Below are positions 5,064-64,000 of a stretch of DNA of 64,000 bases, piece after piece. Under the pieces are notes generated by a model. That model was not told the origin of the DNA, searched no databases, and saw only the letters and a list, made by a program, of their open reading frames with translations. The stretch comes from Pegea sp. RAD2-039 (Eukaryota; Chordata; Thaliacea; Salpida; Salpidae). Within the stretch, counting starts at the first letter, position 1; each line of letters opens with the position of its first letter. Position numbers and translations under genes: made by a program. The DNA is taken from assembly GCA_034620365.1 (NCBI GenBank), contig JAQGEQ010000097.1:372001-436000 (forward strand), given 5' to 3'.

Positions 5064-6102
5064 ATGAGCACTGCAAAAACACAACAAGTAAACACAAAAG
5101 AAGAACCAAGTAAGTATTTTAATGTTTGACATTACAATCGATTAAGTAAATGGTCAAAACTAAACTTTCGTTCAAACGTCACACTGAAATTATAAGCCTT
5201 TTTGTTTACTATACATAAACTTATCAATATTTTAGGAATTGTTTTCAATATTTCACAATCTGAGGTGACTAAAAGTTGTTGCAACACACGAAAACAAGAT
5301 TATATTTCTTCTTTTCTTAAAAAGTATGATATATCAAGTGAGTTACTTCTCAATATTATATGCAAATGTATCAAATAGTCAGCTGAAACCAGTTCTATAG
5401 TTTTAAAGGTTTTAAACAACACTTTTAAAGGTTTAAAATATTGAGTTATCTGTGATTAATCTTTTGAAATTGTTTTCAGGAAAAACACTGCCGTATTTTG
5501 AAATGGAAATTTATTACAATAAAATCAAAGTTTATAAAGAAGTGGTGAATATGAAAACAAACTCCAACTATTTAGGAATACGATTATGTTATGGAAATAT
5601 CTTAAGACATGAAACCGTTTTTCGTTCTTACAAAAAAGAATTACTTTCGTACCATTCTAAAAAAATGCCAGAATGTTATGATGATAGAAACTCAGCTGTT
5701 ATTAATAAGATTCTGGAACATTTTCAACAGGGGTTAGTTGTACGTTATGATGAAGAAAGTGCTTCGTTAGAATGTATCCGTTATTCTGAAAGTTGTGTTA
5801 GTATTTGTGATAGAGAAGTTATTGAATTGAAACGAGCAAAGCCTGTAGTTGTTCGTGATTATGAAAGTATGTTGAATAAGTTTGAAAAAGATGGTAAAAT
5901 ATCTAACATGCAATGCGAGATTGTGATTGGTACAAAACCTCATCGCAGCAAACCTGTTAAAGTCATATTTCGTCCAGTATTGACTCAACACTTAAACCGA
6001 CGTCAAAAAGCAAATCATCTTCACCCAATGGACGCATTATTCAGTTTACAATCTAACAAAACCTCGTTATCATCTAACTCTGGAGAAAGTCTTTCCTTTT
6101 AA
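5064..6102 (+). CDS. IRF-association-domain protein, copy 1 (no DNA-binding domain)
   Basis: Three exons, 5064-5109, 5236-5337 and 5480-6102, join in frame (46+102+623 nt) to give 256 aa. Residues about 50-225 read by eye as the C-terminal association domain of interferon regulatory factors. They open with MEIYYNKIKVYKEVV and GIRLCYG, continue with a helix (NKILEHFQQGLVVRYD), and close with CEIVIGTKP and VIFRPVLTQHL, in the order seen in vertebrate IRF4 and IRF3. This domain mediates dimer and cofactor binding. The first two exons give about 49 residues without the tryptophan-rich IRF DNA-binding domain. The C-terminus has a Ser-rich tail after the domain. The SMAD MH2 fold is related, so that is the main alternative, but the opening and closing strands fit IRF better. 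Near-identical copy at 12905-13434. Confidence 0.72.
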
Positions 6103-7380: not shown

Positions 7381-8160
7381 TAGAATCTCATTTCATCATC
7401 GAACTCATGGCGTATCGCGCATATGACGTCATCTATCAAACGCGATTCGTATCATCTTGAAATAGAAGCAGCTTGTAGTTAGTACAGAAAAAGCATCATG
7501 ACAGAAAAACTACAATCTCCTGACCTCGATATCACTGTCCCTGGTCACTATCCCTGGTCGCTGTCCCAGGTCGGTATCCCAGGTCACTTTCCCTCGTCAC
7601 TGTCCCTGGTCACTTTCCCTGGTCACTGTCCCTGTTCACTGTCCCAGGTCGGTATCCCAGGTCACTTTCCCTCGTCACTATCCCTGGTCGCTGTCCCTGG
7701 TCGCTATCCCAGGTCACTTTCCCTGGTCGCTGTTCCAGGTCACTTTCCCTGGTCGCTGTCTCAGGTCACTGTCCCTGGTCACTCTCCCTGGTCACTGTCC
7801 CTGGTCACTGTCCCTGGTCACTGTCCCAGGTCACTGTCCCTGGTCACTGTCCCAGGTCACTGTCCCAGGTCACTGTCCCTGGTCACTGTCCCTGGTCACT
7901 GTCACAGGTCACTGTCCCTGGTCACTGTCCCAGGTCACTGTCCCAGGTCACTGTCCCTGGTCACTGTCCCTGGTCACCAAGCTGCAAGTCTAAGAAGCAG
8001 GGTAGTCAAGCGCATGCTGTTCTTCATTAGAATCAAAGCGCATGCGCAGTTAAGAAGGAAATATAATTGCCAACTTTCTTTCATCTGCTGCTTCAGTCTA
8101 CAAAAAAAATCGGTTGAAAATATTGGTTGGATTTAGCAGAAGTAGTCGTGTGAGGAACAT
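7381..8160. repeat. 13-bp minisatellite in a GC-richer island
   Basis: From about 7537 to 7976 a 13-bp unit (ggtcactgtccct, alternating with ...ccca) repeats roughly 34 times with C/T and A/T variants. It is flanked by DNA that is also GC-richer: a TGACGTCA palindrome at 7424-7431 before it and a gcgcatgcgc palindrome at about 8038-8047 after it. Three units make 39 bp, so every frame cycles through the same 13-residue peptide, which explains a 212-codon open frame at 7498-8136. I treat that frame as a by-product of the repeat. Confidence 0.9.
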
Positions 8161-12282: not shown

Positions 12283-13434
12283 ATGGAAGAAAGTTCAAGT
12301 TAGAATTTACATTTTATTAAATTATAAGTCATTTACATCAAATAAACCACATTTTAAAGTGTAATCTTAAATTTTAAAAACTAAAGTAGGGAAATATACT
12401 ATATCATGATATACTCAAACTTGATATTTATTTTCAATTGTTGTTTGTTTCTAGGTATTCAATCAAGCAAACAAAAACCTTCACAATTTTTAAATAAGGT
12501 TCCAACATCAGAAAAACATGAAAATATCTTTGGTTGGTTAAGAAGATATAACATTTCTCGTAAGTAGCTTTCTTCCAGTCTTAAATACTAATTTTAGTGA
12601 ATGTAGGATAAAGTTTATTTCTAAAATAACTCATTTAAATTAAAGGTTTTTTTTTCTAAGAAAATAAAACTGAATTTTTCTCAACAATTTCTTTAATTTC
12701 ATTAAATTGGTTTTAATTTTATTCACGAAAAAAAAATTCTTAATTCATTTCAAAGTATTTAACTTGATAAAAATTATTTTATATTCACTTCCTTATTTAC
12801 TTAACCTTTTAATATTTACTAGTTTAAAAACTTGGCCACATTTTTAGTGTTAATGTTGCTTCATTACTTTTTATCTGTGATTAATCATTTAAAACTCTTC
12901 CCAGAGAAAACACTGCCGTATTTTGAAATGGAAATTTATTACAATAAAATCAAAGTTTATAAGGAAGTGGTGAATATGAAAACAAACTCCAACTATTTAG
13001 GAATACGATTATGCTATGGAAATATCTTAAGACATGAAACCGTTTTTCGTTCTTACAAAAAAGAATTACTTTCGTACCATTCTAAAAAAATGCCAGAATG
13101 TTATGATGATAGAAACTCAGCTGTTATTAATAAGATTCTGGAACATTTTCAACAGGGGTTAGTTGTACGTTATGATGAAGAAAGTGCTTCGTTAGAATGT
13201 ATCCGTTATTCTGAAAGTTGTGTTAGTATTTGTGATAGAGAAGTTATTGAATTGAAACGAGCAAAGCCTGTAGTTGTTCGTGATTATGAAAGTATGTTGA
13301 ATAAGTTTGAAAAAGATGGTAAAATATCTAACATGCAATGCGAGATTGTGATTGGTACAAAACCTCATCGCAGCAAACCTGTTAAAGTCATATTTCGTCC
13401 AGTATTGACTCAATATTTAAACCACAAACTTTAG
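12283..13434 (+). CDS. IRF-association-domain protein, copy 2 (no DNA-binding domain)
   Basis: Proposed exons 12283-12298, 12455-12559 and 12905-13434 (16+105+530 nt) join in frame to 216 aa. Exons 2 and 3 have clear splice sites and the same phases as copy 1. Exon 1 is weaker because its donor is GTTAGA. The third exon encodes the same IRF-type association domain as copy 1 with only a handful of base changes. The first two exons share little sequence with copy 1 beyond the end (GWLRRYNIS versus ISSFLKKYDIS). The C-terminus is short (YLNHKL), lacking the Ser-rich tail of copy 1. Like copy 1 it has no DNA-binding domain, so it could act only by dimerising with other IRF-type or partner proteins, which is inference. 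Confidence 0.7.
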
Positions 13435-58129: not shown

Positions 58130-61100
58130 TCAGTCTAATTCATCCATATTGGTATATGGAAGAGACATCGAAATAAATGGATTATTAGGAAACATTTCAT
58201 TTAAGAAATGATTTTTATCTAAAAAAATCAAAACTTCTGTGTTTTGATTTCCAAATAATTGAATATTATTTTGTAGAAGTAAGCAACTAGTTAACCAGCA
58301 ATCATTTACATCAAATTTAATTTCTAAAGCTTGCTTATGACTAATACTTAGTTTGTTAAAGAGATTGTTATGAGACATAATTTTATGATCATCTGTAATT
58401 GACTCATTTGCATTTGGATATTTAGCATCAGTTAGCTAAAAGTAAAATGAAAATATTTGATAAATCCATTTGCTTGATGATTTTAAATACAAATTTGTGA
58501 AAATTAAAGAGTTTAATAAATAATTAAAACAAAAATTTGCATTTTATATTTAAATAGATCAAAATATGCATATTTAAAATAAATGAATGAACTTTAGTGA
58601 TATATACAAAATAGTAAAGACGTCTTCTTCATCTAACCTGACATGACTTGCCAGTTATATAACCAGCTTTGTAGCTAGTAGCAGGTAATGATTTATCAAA
58701 TTCTTTCTCTTCTAGTAATTGCTTGTTATTGATAATATCTGCTGAAGACAGTTTTGAAGTTGAAGAAATTTGTGGACAAATACTCACGAGTTATCTTTTG
58801 TGTGTCCTTAGAGGGTTCTGTGTCTCCAAGAGAGTTTAGAAGATCAAAAGCTGATAGAACTAACCCAGGAAACGATCGAGTGAAGAACTCAAGGACTGTT
58901 TCATCGGCGTTTCGTTTCTCTAAAGTTATTTGAAGACTGTAGAAAGAAAAAGATGAAAAAATTATTCGATTTAGAAATTAGGTGACGAAAATCAATGATA
59001 TCGACCCACAAAAGGTTAATTAAATCAAAAATTCAATTTGTTTTGCGGCTTACAAGAAGTCATAATCATCTAAACTCTTTTGTATGATCAGAAAGAGGTC
59101 TTGTACTGTCGTGATCTCTTCTTTTAAGTGATAAAGATTACTTCTATCCGAATACAATGAAAGGATTTCCTGAAATTATTTATTTTAATAAATTAAAACT
59201 CGAAAAGAAATCTCAACTCTAGAATGAGCTTCTAATAGATCCCCAACATAAGTTCTGTAAGATGAATACTTCTTCAAAACTTTTTCTAATCTTTCACTTC
59301 GATCTGATCTTTCGATGAAATAAGGATGTGAGGCGACCTGGAATTTATGAAAATTTAATTGGAAACCCTTTTATTTGAGAGATAAGATACCTGGTTAAGA
59401 TTAAATCTTTTTTCTGGTTCCTTAAACAACATATTTTGAACTAAATGATGAGAGAATGGATCCGAAGATAAGATTTTTAGATTGTAGCTGAAAAAAGATG
59501 AAGATCGAAATTGAGATTTAGAAGATGAAACGGACCTCCCCCTCTGTATATTGGCGATACAGATCTCTGCTGAGGATGAAGGATCTCCAAAAGGATGTCC
59601 TCCTTCTGTGAGGATGTAGTAAAACAACATCCCAAGACACTGAAAGAGCAAAAAAAGATTAAGATTTGAGAAGTTATGAGAAAAAGTTGAATTTTTACCG
59701 AAATATCGGATTTTTCGCTGAAATAATCCTCCCTTTTATGTTTATATTTCAAAATTTCACTTGAAAGCCAACATTGAATAAATGTTGAAGTATTCGAAGT
59801 TTGAAAGAAAGAGCTTGAATGGATTCCATAATCTGCCAGCTTCATTATACCGTCTCGTCCAATCAAAACATTTGAAGGCTTCAAAAAATTGATTGAAATA
59901 AAATTAGAGGTTGATATAATCGTGACAACAAAGTTTTAAAGATACAAGAAGATTTATGGATTAAAGACATACTCTGATGCTTCTGTGTAAGATGTTGTTT
60001 TGATGAAGATGTTGAAGACCTTCTACGAGTTGTTTGAAGTGAGTTGTTGTAGTTGAAGGAAGATGAAAGATTGAATGTGAGACAAAAACTTGAGTTAATG
60101 AGAACTCAGCCAGCTCCGATATCTTCATCAATTTAAAACTTTCAAATTATTCTAAAAAATCGATTTTTTTTGTAACAGACTTGATAAAAGTTCGGTTTGT
60201 CTTTAAAGATGTAGAAATTTTGAAGGATCGACGGATGAGGTCTTAAAGATCTCAACATCTCAACAGTTTGTGGATTATTCAGAAGATCAGCGTTTCGAAT
60301 GTTGAACTTCTTGACAGAAAACTCCGAATTGAAATCATCAAGTCCCAAATAAACAGAAGAAGACATCTCACTGCGCGGAAGACATCTTAAGATGAAGATC
60401 ATCTTCAAGCTCCTCCACTAACCCGTGTCCTATCAGTAGATGATGTTGCTCCAATGAAAACCTGATCCGATTCTTCTCTTCGTCTTCTGGATTTAAACAA
60501 ATCTTCTTCAAATTCTGATCGTTCATTGACATCATATCTTCAAATCTCGCTGTCCATCGCGATTCGTGTGTGACGTCATCGTCGCCTTGAAGATCTTCAT
60601 CAAGGATTCTTAAACAGCTCCTTGAAGGGGTCGGATGAGATGGGATCACTTTTCCGGAGCTGATCTCTGCTTCAACTTCATCTATACTCTTTGATTGGCT
60701 GAGAGGATGCGAGAAAGACACAGATTTTCGAGATCCGTCAATACTACATTCAGAAGATGAAGAGCTAATCCTTCTTCTGCGAGATGAAGTCCCAAGAAGA
60801 TGTAGGGAGCCGTTGAAGTCTTTCTCTACATCCACAGGAGCATACTGAAAAAATAAAAAAATATCTTTCAGATGAAGATACGAGAAAGATTTCTGCTAGC
60901 ATCTTGACAATCTAACAAACCTTAAAAGCTAGAAACTCTTGTGTAAACTCTCGACGAAGTATAAAGATCATACTAAAAGAGAAGATGTTAAAAATACCCC
61001 CCTCTACCTCACCTAACTCCCTCTTTTGCAACTGGATAGTCTTATTTATCTTCTGTTGTGTCAAAACACTTTTCAAAGAAATTTTATAACTAAAAAACTG

Positions 61101-64000
61101 ACAATTCATTTTCTGATTCATATTTCAAACTTAGAAATCTACAATTGAAGCAGCGACTGAAGCTATTCGATGCTTTTTTGAAAGTGTTGTTCGCAGACAG
61201 TCAAGTTGTTTATAACTTTAAGTTATTTTTAGATGATTTGAAGGATTATTAGATACTTATCAATTGAACGTAGGTTTAACCACTAGCTTCTCTACTGATA
61301 ATATCGACTTTAAATATAGAAATAATTTCAAATTATAAAAAATTTTTAATTAATTAAAAAATTATCAAATTTTTCTTACTAAAGGTGCTGAAGATTCTGA
61401 TTGACATCTAGAACGCTTCTTCTTTTTCGGTTTCTTCTTTTTCTTGGAAGATTTGTGTCTTTTTTGGCATTCTTGTATATTCTTTTCATCATCTGATTGA
61501 CTTTTTTGTTGCTTTTCGTTTTCTTTATTTAATTTCTCGATTTGAAAAAAGCTAGCTTTTGTTTCTGTGTTTATTTTTTTGTCTGAACTTCCAACTAAAT
61601 CTTGTAAAGATGACGTCTTATAGAAAAACGGTTCTGTGATGATATCTTCTTCATCCTGTAAAGATTGCAGCTGTTCTTGAGAATGTTTCTTACGCCCACG
61701 TTTCAAGACCTGATCAAAACAATAATACAACATAAAAAAAACTGACAAAGCAAATAAATCGAATAAAAAAATTCTTACTTTTATACAAAGTTTCATGTTT
61801 CTGTTAGATGAAAATTTAAGGTTTGAAGGAACAAGTAAAAAGTTTTCAGTTTCTGATGAAAATAGAAGCGATCGATCATCTTTTAGTCTAGAAGTAGAAG
61901 TTTTAGAGAGCCACAAACAGGAGATAAAAAATCTAACCTTTCTAAAACATCAATACAACCAAGTTTGATGGCTTTGACGAAATTACTGCCTTCAAATGGA
62001 AAGTGAAAATCAAGAAGAAGATGAACAAGTTCTACATCTTCTTCTAATGCTCTTTAAAGACATTTTAATCTCAATGAGATGTCAATAATTGACAAGTTAG
62101 TTTGTACTTGCAAACAATGTGCTTCATGTAATTAGATGAAGTATTATCTTGGTGTTTTTCGTCTTCATTTTTTTGTAACATTATTCTAGAAAATCGATAA
62201 TCATTTAGCAAAAAATTGATTGAAAATCCTCCAAAAAAAACTAATTAAAGAATTTTATTCAACTTTTTACTTTATTGAAATTAAATTAAGATGTTACTGG
62301 AACCTGCTAGCATGGTAACGCTTGTCGCTTTTCAAGAAGTGTTTGATAAGAGAAAGTAAAAAAAGCCAAATTGGTTTGTTTAAAATTTCATCTTCATCAT
62401 CTAAATGATTACCTAAAGATTTATACTTTTTAATTCAATGTTTTATTTACAAGTTGATACGGTTTAGATGAAAACTTACTTTGTGAAGTGAACAGATACA
62501 AGTACAAAAGCCTGCCAAGTTTGTAGAAGTGGTCAGTTGAAAGACCTTCTAGTTGAGTCACTACTGTAGTTCTAAAAAAACATTTTAAATTAAAAATTTC
62601 GACAATTAGAAGGAGTTATTTGCAGATAAAAACTTTAGAAACAGAAATTTAAATCATCGGTTTTTAACAGATTTTTAAAATATCATTTTTGAGATGAAAC
62701 TTCAGTTTTTAAGTGTTTCAAAATAGTTTTTATTGCAATATAAGCTCGGTAGTGACGAATAATCAATTTATTATTGACAGCAAACCAAGAGATATTTAGA
62801 AATATCAATATTGCTTACTTAACACTAATATTTGAAAGAAGAAAATTGAATATTCTTGTTAAGGGAAGAAGAACGTTTCTGCAAGTGTTTTTACAAGCTT
62901 CGTTTGTGGATTCAATCAAATTTTGTAAAATAGAACCCCAACAGCAAGATTTAGCAACAATTCCAGAAACCTAATCATAAAATAAACAAATTACTAAAAT
63001 ACTGCAAAACAAAAAGAACAAAAAAACCTTTTTTAGTTGTGATTTGCTGACACTCAGTATAATGTAAACTGTGTTAAGAAAATCATAAAAATTGCTCTCA
63101 TCAAAAGATGTACAGAGAGTTGATAGAAATGTGTCTTCCCTGAAGCCTTGAGTTGCTACTTCAGGAGAAACCAACGAATATAAACCAACACAATAAATTG
63201 AAATTGGATTGTAAAGTAAAGTAAGAGAACAATATAACTGAAAATTAGAAATAGAAATTAATAATTTGAAAATTCTTTTAATTAAAATAAAATTCAGGGA
63301 CTTACTGCTTCATATAATAATGGACGATGTATTTTAATACTTTGTTCCACAAACATCTTTCCAATTGATATGCGATTAACATCTATTCTACTGATACCAT
63401 TCGGATAACAACTTCTAAAAACTTGTGTAAAAACTTCCCAATTTTCCATAATTTTGAGCTGAAATTACAACATTCTTCAAATACTAATCTAGAATGGTTC
63501 ATATACCTTAGACTTAATAGGAAATAGAAGACATGCATTTTCATCTAGAAGATATTCTACTATGTCTTTATGACCATATTCAGCTGCTAAAAATAATGCT
63601 GATTGTCCATTCTATCAAGCAACAAAATTAAAGTGTTTGTATGTACAGTAACTCATTTTCATATTTAGTAATCTTATATTGTTTTTATTATTACTATTAA
63701 AATTGTTTTTGGTGCTCAACAAGAATTTATTAGCTACTTTTTGATTAAAAATAATTGAATTAGAAAACTTCTATAAATTATTATATAAACTTTATAGACA
63801 ACATATCTATATAGATATCACTAATATTGGAATATATTTAGAATAATATTGAAGTCTTATAACTTAATTAGTGTTTTAAGCAAACAAATTTTTCTATTTT
63901 AGTTGTTGAAATGTTTTTAACAAAACTTTAAATTGAATATTTTTAGCTTTGTAAATACTACAAAAATATTTCAATAAATTTTTGCTCAAAATGTGAAATA
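58130..64000 (-). CDS. Ankyrin-pseudokinase-KEN protein, RNase L-like (5' end outside window)
   Basis: Order along the protein: an ankyrin repeat (SALFLAAEYGHKDIVEYLL, about 63500-63612), an unrecognised helical region, a weak ankyrin-like piece (61940-62055), a Lys-rich segment (61365-61916), then a kinase-like domain from LLIGHG (glycine loop completed across a 56-nt intron, 60423 to 60370) through FSVKKF, ILHRSIRPSNVLI and KLADYG to SHPYF, and last a KEN-like domain: LYSDRSNLYHLKEE, TTVQDLFLII, VLEFFTRSFPGLVLSAF (59218-58788). This order is that of RNase L; IRE1 shares kinase plus KEN but has a luminal and membrane part instead. The Asp of HRD is Ser, so phosphotransfer is unlikely. A C-terminal extension of over 130 residues follows KEN. 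Kinase and KEN exons (60423-60844 to 58130-58435) join in frame; junctions between 61365 and 60972 are unresolved. Confidence 0.75.

Follow-up and report, generated by a model that had tools for sequence, protein, structure and literature searches.

RNase L has been widely described in vertebrates, and the locus considered here raises the question of whether a salp carries a working protein of the same type or something else built from similar parts. The window (the whole stretch of DNA analysed, 64,000 nucleotides) comes from Pegea sp. RAD2-039 (contig JAQGEQ010000097.1, positions 372,001 to 436,000 of the forward strand; C52:372001-436000 in a genome of 105.7 Mb and 387 contigs) and has a G+C content of 27.7%. 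The original prediction placed at 58788-63612 a gene with ankyrin repeats, a kinase-like part and a KEN domain, and likened it to RNase L. We find that an ankyrin-kinase-KEN-like gene at 58130-64106 is real, and that its product, judged from sequence, is probably an ankyrin pseudokinase-pseudonuclease rather than a working RNase L. The specific reading that we prefer, and hold with about even confidence, is a protein whose two ankyrin repeats are followed by an IRE1-like pseudokinase and by a KEN-like domain without nuclease residues, acting as a nuclease-dead regulator or scaffold.

Gene model, ankyrin repeats and kinase-like domain

Twenty-one exons were spliced by hand on the minus strand, from 64106 to 58130, yielding a product of 1134 amino acids. 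All 20 introns have GT-AG borders, the phases agree and the frame is open across every junction. Most introns are short (46-117 bases for 15 out of 20), the longest being intron 10 (535 bases) and intron 1 (402 bases); AATAAA follows the stop codon, and G+C is 0.342 in the coding part against 0.244 in the introns. The initially proposed span runs, within one base, from the outer end of exon 19 to that of exon 2, but the gene is larger: exon 1 (64014-64106 in window numbering), which falls beyond the window and carries both the start codon and the first ankyrin repeat, and exons 20-21 are additional. Not every junction is equally certain: exons 12-14 have acceptors without a pyrimidine run, an alternative donor of exon 7 would add two residues, and the longer introns 1, 5, 7, 10, and 20 may contain additional exons.

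According to this model, the ankyrin and kinase-KEN halves would form one transcript. The weakest link between them is intron 10, the longest of the 20, where exons 1-10, as an ankyrin gene, might have been wrongly joined to a separate kinase-KEN gene made up of exon 11 and those after it; we consider this quite improbable, as the exon 10 donor, GTAAGA, and the exon 11 acceptor, TTTTTTCAG, agree in phase, and the start of exon 11 scores as coding in frame (0.078 bits per codon vs. -0.16 and -0.235). Moreover, exon 11 opens with 103 open codons before any Met, and thus an upstream coding exon is needed, not necessarily exon 10.

The original prediction suggested profile searches for the ankyrin and kinase parts, and both profiles proved significant. 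In the Pfam scan of the whole protein, Ank_2 scored 33.1 bits (cut-off 27.3, E=8.8e-08, amino acids 4-56), Ank scored 24.5 bits (amino acids 32-58), and Pkinase scored 104.7 bits (E=7e-30); these scores rule out a chance match to either domain. Two ankyrin repeats were detected (amino acids 4-58) and none further was listed in the scan, which could miss divergent repeats. At E<=10, only ankyrin families, all N-terminal, were listed for amino acids 1-379, and the region of exons 3-8 had no match among PDB sequences; an ankyrin likeness of exon 8 was seen by eye, and Pfam profiles give it no support. The C-terminal tail encoded by exons 20-21 likewise had no match among PDB sequences at E<=10. 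The highest 19-residue hydropathy is 1.43, and hence there is no clear transmembrane segment. A polybasic run, KSSKKKKKPKKKKRSR, at amino acids 465-480 within a low-complexity stretch resembles, by eye, a nuclear signal.

Judged from its sequence, the kinase-like domain is most like IRE1. When the kinase-KEN part was compared with PDB sequences, the first 13 distinct sequences were all IRE1 (1.2e-24 to 8.9e-24), with non-IRE1 kinases starting at 2e-18 and yeast IRE1 appearing among them from 6.5e-17; RNase L was absent from the best 60 of 2643 matches. Pairwise BLASTP of the kinase, at a common nominal database size, gave 105 bits with human IRE1, 90.5 bits with the IRE1 of the same genome (own IRE1, C6:3119902-3121800), 82.4, 72.0, 67.4, and 62.0 bits with four other kinases of the genome, and 38.9 and 25.8 bits with pig and human RNase L, respectively. 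The motifs are altered, with HRS replacing HRD and DYG replacing DFG, and Lys is retained in the place of the ATP-binding Lys. The glycine loop after splicing reads GHGEMSSSVYLG, just as first given.

The KEN-like tail and its nuclease residues

Of the initially proposed order of ankyrin, kinase-like and KEN domains, the first two parts stand, the second as an IRE1-like pseudokinase, but the third is only KEN-like. The original prediction named KEN and ankyrin profiles below significance as evidence against itself; the ankyrin profile passed its cut-off, and PF06479 (KEN) reached 15.7 bits (E=0.017) when the part after the kinase was scanned alone, below the Pfam cut-off of 23.3.

By our judgement, it is nevertheless likely that the tail after the kinase descends from KEN. 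BLASTP alignments with own IRE1, without and with composition correction, span kinase and KEN in one piece, the corrected one reaching query residue 375 of 385. The 260 residues that follow the kinase scored 10.6 bits with a local KEN model built from five sequences, and eight out of 20000 shuffles of the first 135 post-kinase residues (18960 scored) reached this value. The stretch that leads from D-L to F-T has 35 residues, compared with 36 in own IRE1, and six invariant columns (D-L, F, F-P, L) are kept in a five-row KEN alignment, in which this gene is one row. The tail is counted in favor of the preferred reading for its right length and for these columns, common to the other four KENs. 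In Smith-Waterman comparisons with five KENs, human RNase L gave the top score (54), and the observed scores were reached, out of 4000 shuffles, by four for human RNase L, 23 for own IRE1, 117 for yeast IRE1, 314 for pig RNase L, and 567 for human IRE1. Five control segments of the same protein scored 19-38 against the five KENs, save for one low-complexity segment with 47 against pig RNase L.

Several observations weigh against this assignment. Apart from its low score in the scan of the tail, PF06479 is not listed at all in the whole-protein scan at E up to 10, while true KENs score 88-129 bits (88.3 for human RNase L and 128.9 for own IRE1 as controls); a genome-wide six-frame search with this profile yielded two matches, both in the C6 IRE1 gene and none at this gene. 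The pairwise shuffle tests are weak in three out of five cases, BLASTP alignments with human IRE1 and the PDB-search matches stop at the kinase end, and BLASTP with the KEN part alone matched none of the eight other sequences used for comparison. Given the score below the cut-off and the lack of such a match, the tail could be another helical domain, and the protein an ankyrin pseudokinase with a non-KEN tail whose likeness is that of any helical sequence after a kinase. We regard this as rather improbable: E=0.017 over 24736 models corresponds to about 7e-7 for the single model expected after an IRE1-like kinase, the length and anchor motifs fit KEN, and the control segments score 19-38 apart from the one low-complexity exception.

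The residues needed for cutting are a separate matter. Three KEN residues, namely the Arg, the polar residue that follows it and the His, have been described as important for cleavage (PMC3710099; here and below, statements from the literature refer to the accessible parts of the papers cited). In RNase L these are Arg667, Asn668, and His672, counted from helix V659-H672 as in PMC8104961. At the place of this motif, IRE1 has R-N-K-K-H-H, pig RNase L has R-N-L-G-E-H, and the salp protein has Q-K-S-L-D-D; the alignments agree, Arg-Asn-x3-His being Gln-Lys-x3-Asp in each of them, and the aligned active-site helix has no Arg, Asn, or His. At position 672, the human RNase L chain 4oau has Asn and the pig chain has His. 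The Asn at the catalytic His place of the solved human chain is presumably that of a mutant made for crystals. Thus, under the alignments made, the nuclease residues of KEN appear to be lost. The alignment by eye on which the KEN assignment had first relied did not include the catalytic stretch, and the implied likeness to RNase L as a nuclease finds no support here, since the catalytic Arg, Asn, and His are replaced.

A nuclease could be retained if ankyrin repeats had been fused independently to an old paralogue resembling IRE1 and the active site had moved. The domain length is kept, and an R-x4-H motif, RSNLYH, is present at amino acids 919-924, which counts against our reading of a dead nuclease; it lies, however, 21 residues before the aligned active site, so that the fit would need an insertion of about that length, and R-x4-H arises by chance in 1624 out of 5000 shuffles. 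On these two grounds RSNLYH is disfavored as an active site, and, as the usual helix has none of the three catalytic residues, we consider an active nuclease of this kind very improbable. The same segment may have another role: in the numbering of PMC8104961, the Arg of S-D-R-S-N-L-Y aligns with R651 of human RNase L, a place matched there with yeast R1039, which has been called involved in substrate binding (PMC8104961). This hints that the tail could hold RNA.

Relationship to IRE1 and RNase L

Own IRE1 keeps HRD, DFG, and the KEN motif RNKKHH, and with these kinase and KEN motifs intact in a separate gene, the nuclease function would be held elsewhere in the genome. Nine rows, five of them kinase-KEN sequences besides this gene, entered the tree, in which the gene falls outside IRE1 and RNase L (support 85/89) and joins the five kinase-KEN rows weakly (70/87); among several long branches, that of RNase L has 2.18 changes per column. 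In approximately unbiased (AU) tests, grouping the gene with RNase L (p 0.086) or with both IRE1s (p 0.0945) was not rejected. To the detriment of our reading, pairings with either of two further kinases of the genome (p 0.106 and 0.169) were not rejected either. The tree leaves the gene unplaced and gives no verdict for RNase L, for IRE1, or for neither; both origins initially proposed, an independent fusion or an old RNase L relative, may apply. Grouping with own IRE1 alone was rejected (p 2.86e-6), and the eight introns of the kinase-KEN part share no position with the eight of the C6 IRE1, the closest pair being six alignment columns apart; on these two counts, a recent duplicate of own IRE1 was dismissed.

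The gene could be a true, fast-evolving relative of RNase L that owes its domain order to common origin and lost the nuclease in this lineage. The order is indeed the same, the KEN of human RNase L has the best Smith-Waterman result, a longer loop ahead of the D-L motif, Y-x-x-R-x-N-x-Y, is common to human RNase L and this gene, its Arg being aligned to R651 (pig RNase L lacks that Arg), and the AU test tolerates the grouping. On the other hand, the kinase scores are far higher with both IRE1s than with RNase L, the KEN score of pig RNase L is reached by 314 out of 4000 shuffles, and two ankyrin repeats were detected rather than nine. OAS1_C (PF10421) had no match in the genome, but the control genomes also had none, so that this search lacks a positive control and does not show absence. 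In the accessible text of Hu et al. 2018 (PMC6307210), RNaseL was not found in any of 12 lower Metazoa (four sponges and eight others). Taking all this into account, we consider such a relative unlikely. Slightly less doubtful, and still tentative, is a broader proposal, in which an ankyrin-pseudokinase-KEN protein predates the split between human IRE1 and own IRE1, forming an invertebrate branch of RNase L type, nuclease-dead and possibly a nuclear RNA-holding or IRE1-pairing regulator.

The kinase is closest to that of IRE1 (ERN1), and the KEN-like part follows directly, but ankyrin repeats stand in place of the luminal domain, there is no clear transmembrane segment, the kinase identity is about 29%, HRS is found for HRD, and the catalytic KEN residues are lost. 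With RNase L, the protein shares the order of ankyrin repeats, pseudokinase, and a KEN or KEN-like part, but RNase L has nine ankyrin repeats, of which repeats 2 and 4 bind 2-5A (PMC4730318), the salp protein has long linker regions, its kinase is not especially RNase L-like, and the nuclease residues are replaced. The initially proposed likeness to RNase L is thus weakened by the repeat count and by a tree that does not group the two.

HEPN domains without the R-x4-6-H motif, also among the nearest known systems, have been reported, with RNA binding without cutting proposed for them (PMC3710099). According to the same paper, the KEN motif is "mostly conserved (95%)", and KEN-kinase is fused to ankyrin repeats and CCCH "in some" cases; the lineage of these ankyrin fusions is not named in its accessible part. 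OAS and RNase L have been given as absent from Aplysia in the available text of PMC9334734, in Nematostella, one of the genes responding to poly(I:C) has been named as an RNase L homologue (PMC8476169), and the accessible part of PMC13319465 mentions RNase L only in the introduction. Within the open-access literature, we came across no account of an ankyrin kinase-KEN protein with a dead nuclease, unpublished database annotations being outside that search.

If the preferred reading of a nuclease-dead regulator or scaffold holds, the ankyrin part may hold a partner, the pseudokinase may bind nucleotide (the Lys and DYG remain) and pair with a like domain, either its own or that of IRE1, and the KEN-like part could aid this pairing or hold RNA without cutting it; the protein may be located in the nucleus. 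This mechanism is an inference. If the product is soluble, an ankyrin kinase-KEN gene that coexists with an ordinary IRE1 would place this architecture outside vertebrates; the lack of nuclease residues would make it a natural test of pseudokinase-KEN pairing apart from RNA cutting.

Feature coordinates and the rest of the genome

Table 1. Features of the ankyrin-pseudokinase-KEN-like gene within the window (window numbering).
Feature	Position	Strand	Basis
Gene, exons 21 to 2	58130..63611	-	Hand-spliced model, GT-AG introns, open frame
Exon 2, second ankyrin repeat	63507..63611	-	Pfam Ank, Ank_2
Exons 3-8, amino acids 67-342, unmatched region	61938..63458	-	Pfam and PDB sequence searches
Lys/Ser-rich low-complexity stretch (exons 9-10, beginning of exon 11)	60530..61887	-	Translation
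Kinase-like domain, amino acids 626-877, exons 11-17	59318..60436	-	Pkinase, PDB sequences
Ser741 in the catalytic Asp place (HRS for HRD)	59979..59981	-	Alignments; exon 13 L-H-R-S-I-R
KEN-like domain, about amino acids 878-990, exons 17-19	58800..59317	-	PF06479 below cut-off, alignments
Place of the KEN catalytic motif, Q-K-S-L-D-D, amino acids 940-945	59065..59082	-	Several alignments agree
Exons 20-21 (58638-58741, 58130-58435), C-terminal tail of ~135 amino acids	58130..58741	-	Unmatched

The genome was also searched with parts of the protein. All five matches of the KEN/tail query at E<=10 were in this gene, as were seven out of nine matches of the middle region; the kinase query gave 135 matches, those outside this gene having ordinary kinase scores from 2.4e-19 down. 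The two remaining middle-region matches fall in a partial, near-identical copy of the gene's 5' portion at C147:43342-46484, which aligns with window positions 62604-65333. The identity is 98.8% over 736 aligned columns (exons 4-5) and 97.7% over 260 (exon 2), with exons 2, 4, and 5 differing by 0, 1, and 1 bases, respectively, and with upstream pieces at 93.5% and 86.3%; about 100 bases are missing in exon 3, exon 1 is unaligned, nothing aligns beyond window position 62604, and the kinase part is lacking. The copy reflects either a difference between haplotypes or a broken duplicate of recent origin.

In the C6 IRE1, a TTCTTCTGATCTT-like repeat fills one kinase intron. Mab-21 had one genome match, of single-exon length, and neither the SMODS search nor one for COX1 gave a match. 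A relative in viral contigs was sought with six peptide patterns in one scan; five stretches matched and none was confirmed.

Near the gene, an axonemal dynein intermediate chain gene was recognized by eye at about 53.8-55.6 kb of the window, and exons of CUB and sushi type as well as a MELK-like kinase, also by eye, lie beyond its right end. Beside the CUB-/sushi-like exons, outside the window at ~67542-68500 (window numbering), there is a long minisatellite-like array of short units, in which several frames on both strands are open over long stretches. Within the window, positions 7532-7977 hold 34 tandem copies of the 13-base unit TCACTGTCCCTGG, with three plus-strand frames open over more than 160 codons, perhaps as an effect of the repeat and not as a gene. 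Two plus-strand open reading frames, 5437-6102 (221 codons) and 12823-13434 (203 codons), have a long near-identical stretch in common, representing a recent duplication or a mobile element. Eukaryotic rRNA genes are present, a pattern search giving candidate places for small-subunit (SSU) rRNA on C27, C1, C125, and C278; the full-length SSU gene is on C27, and the one at C1:6130001-6132000 is without its 5' part and adjoins a satellite near the C1 end.

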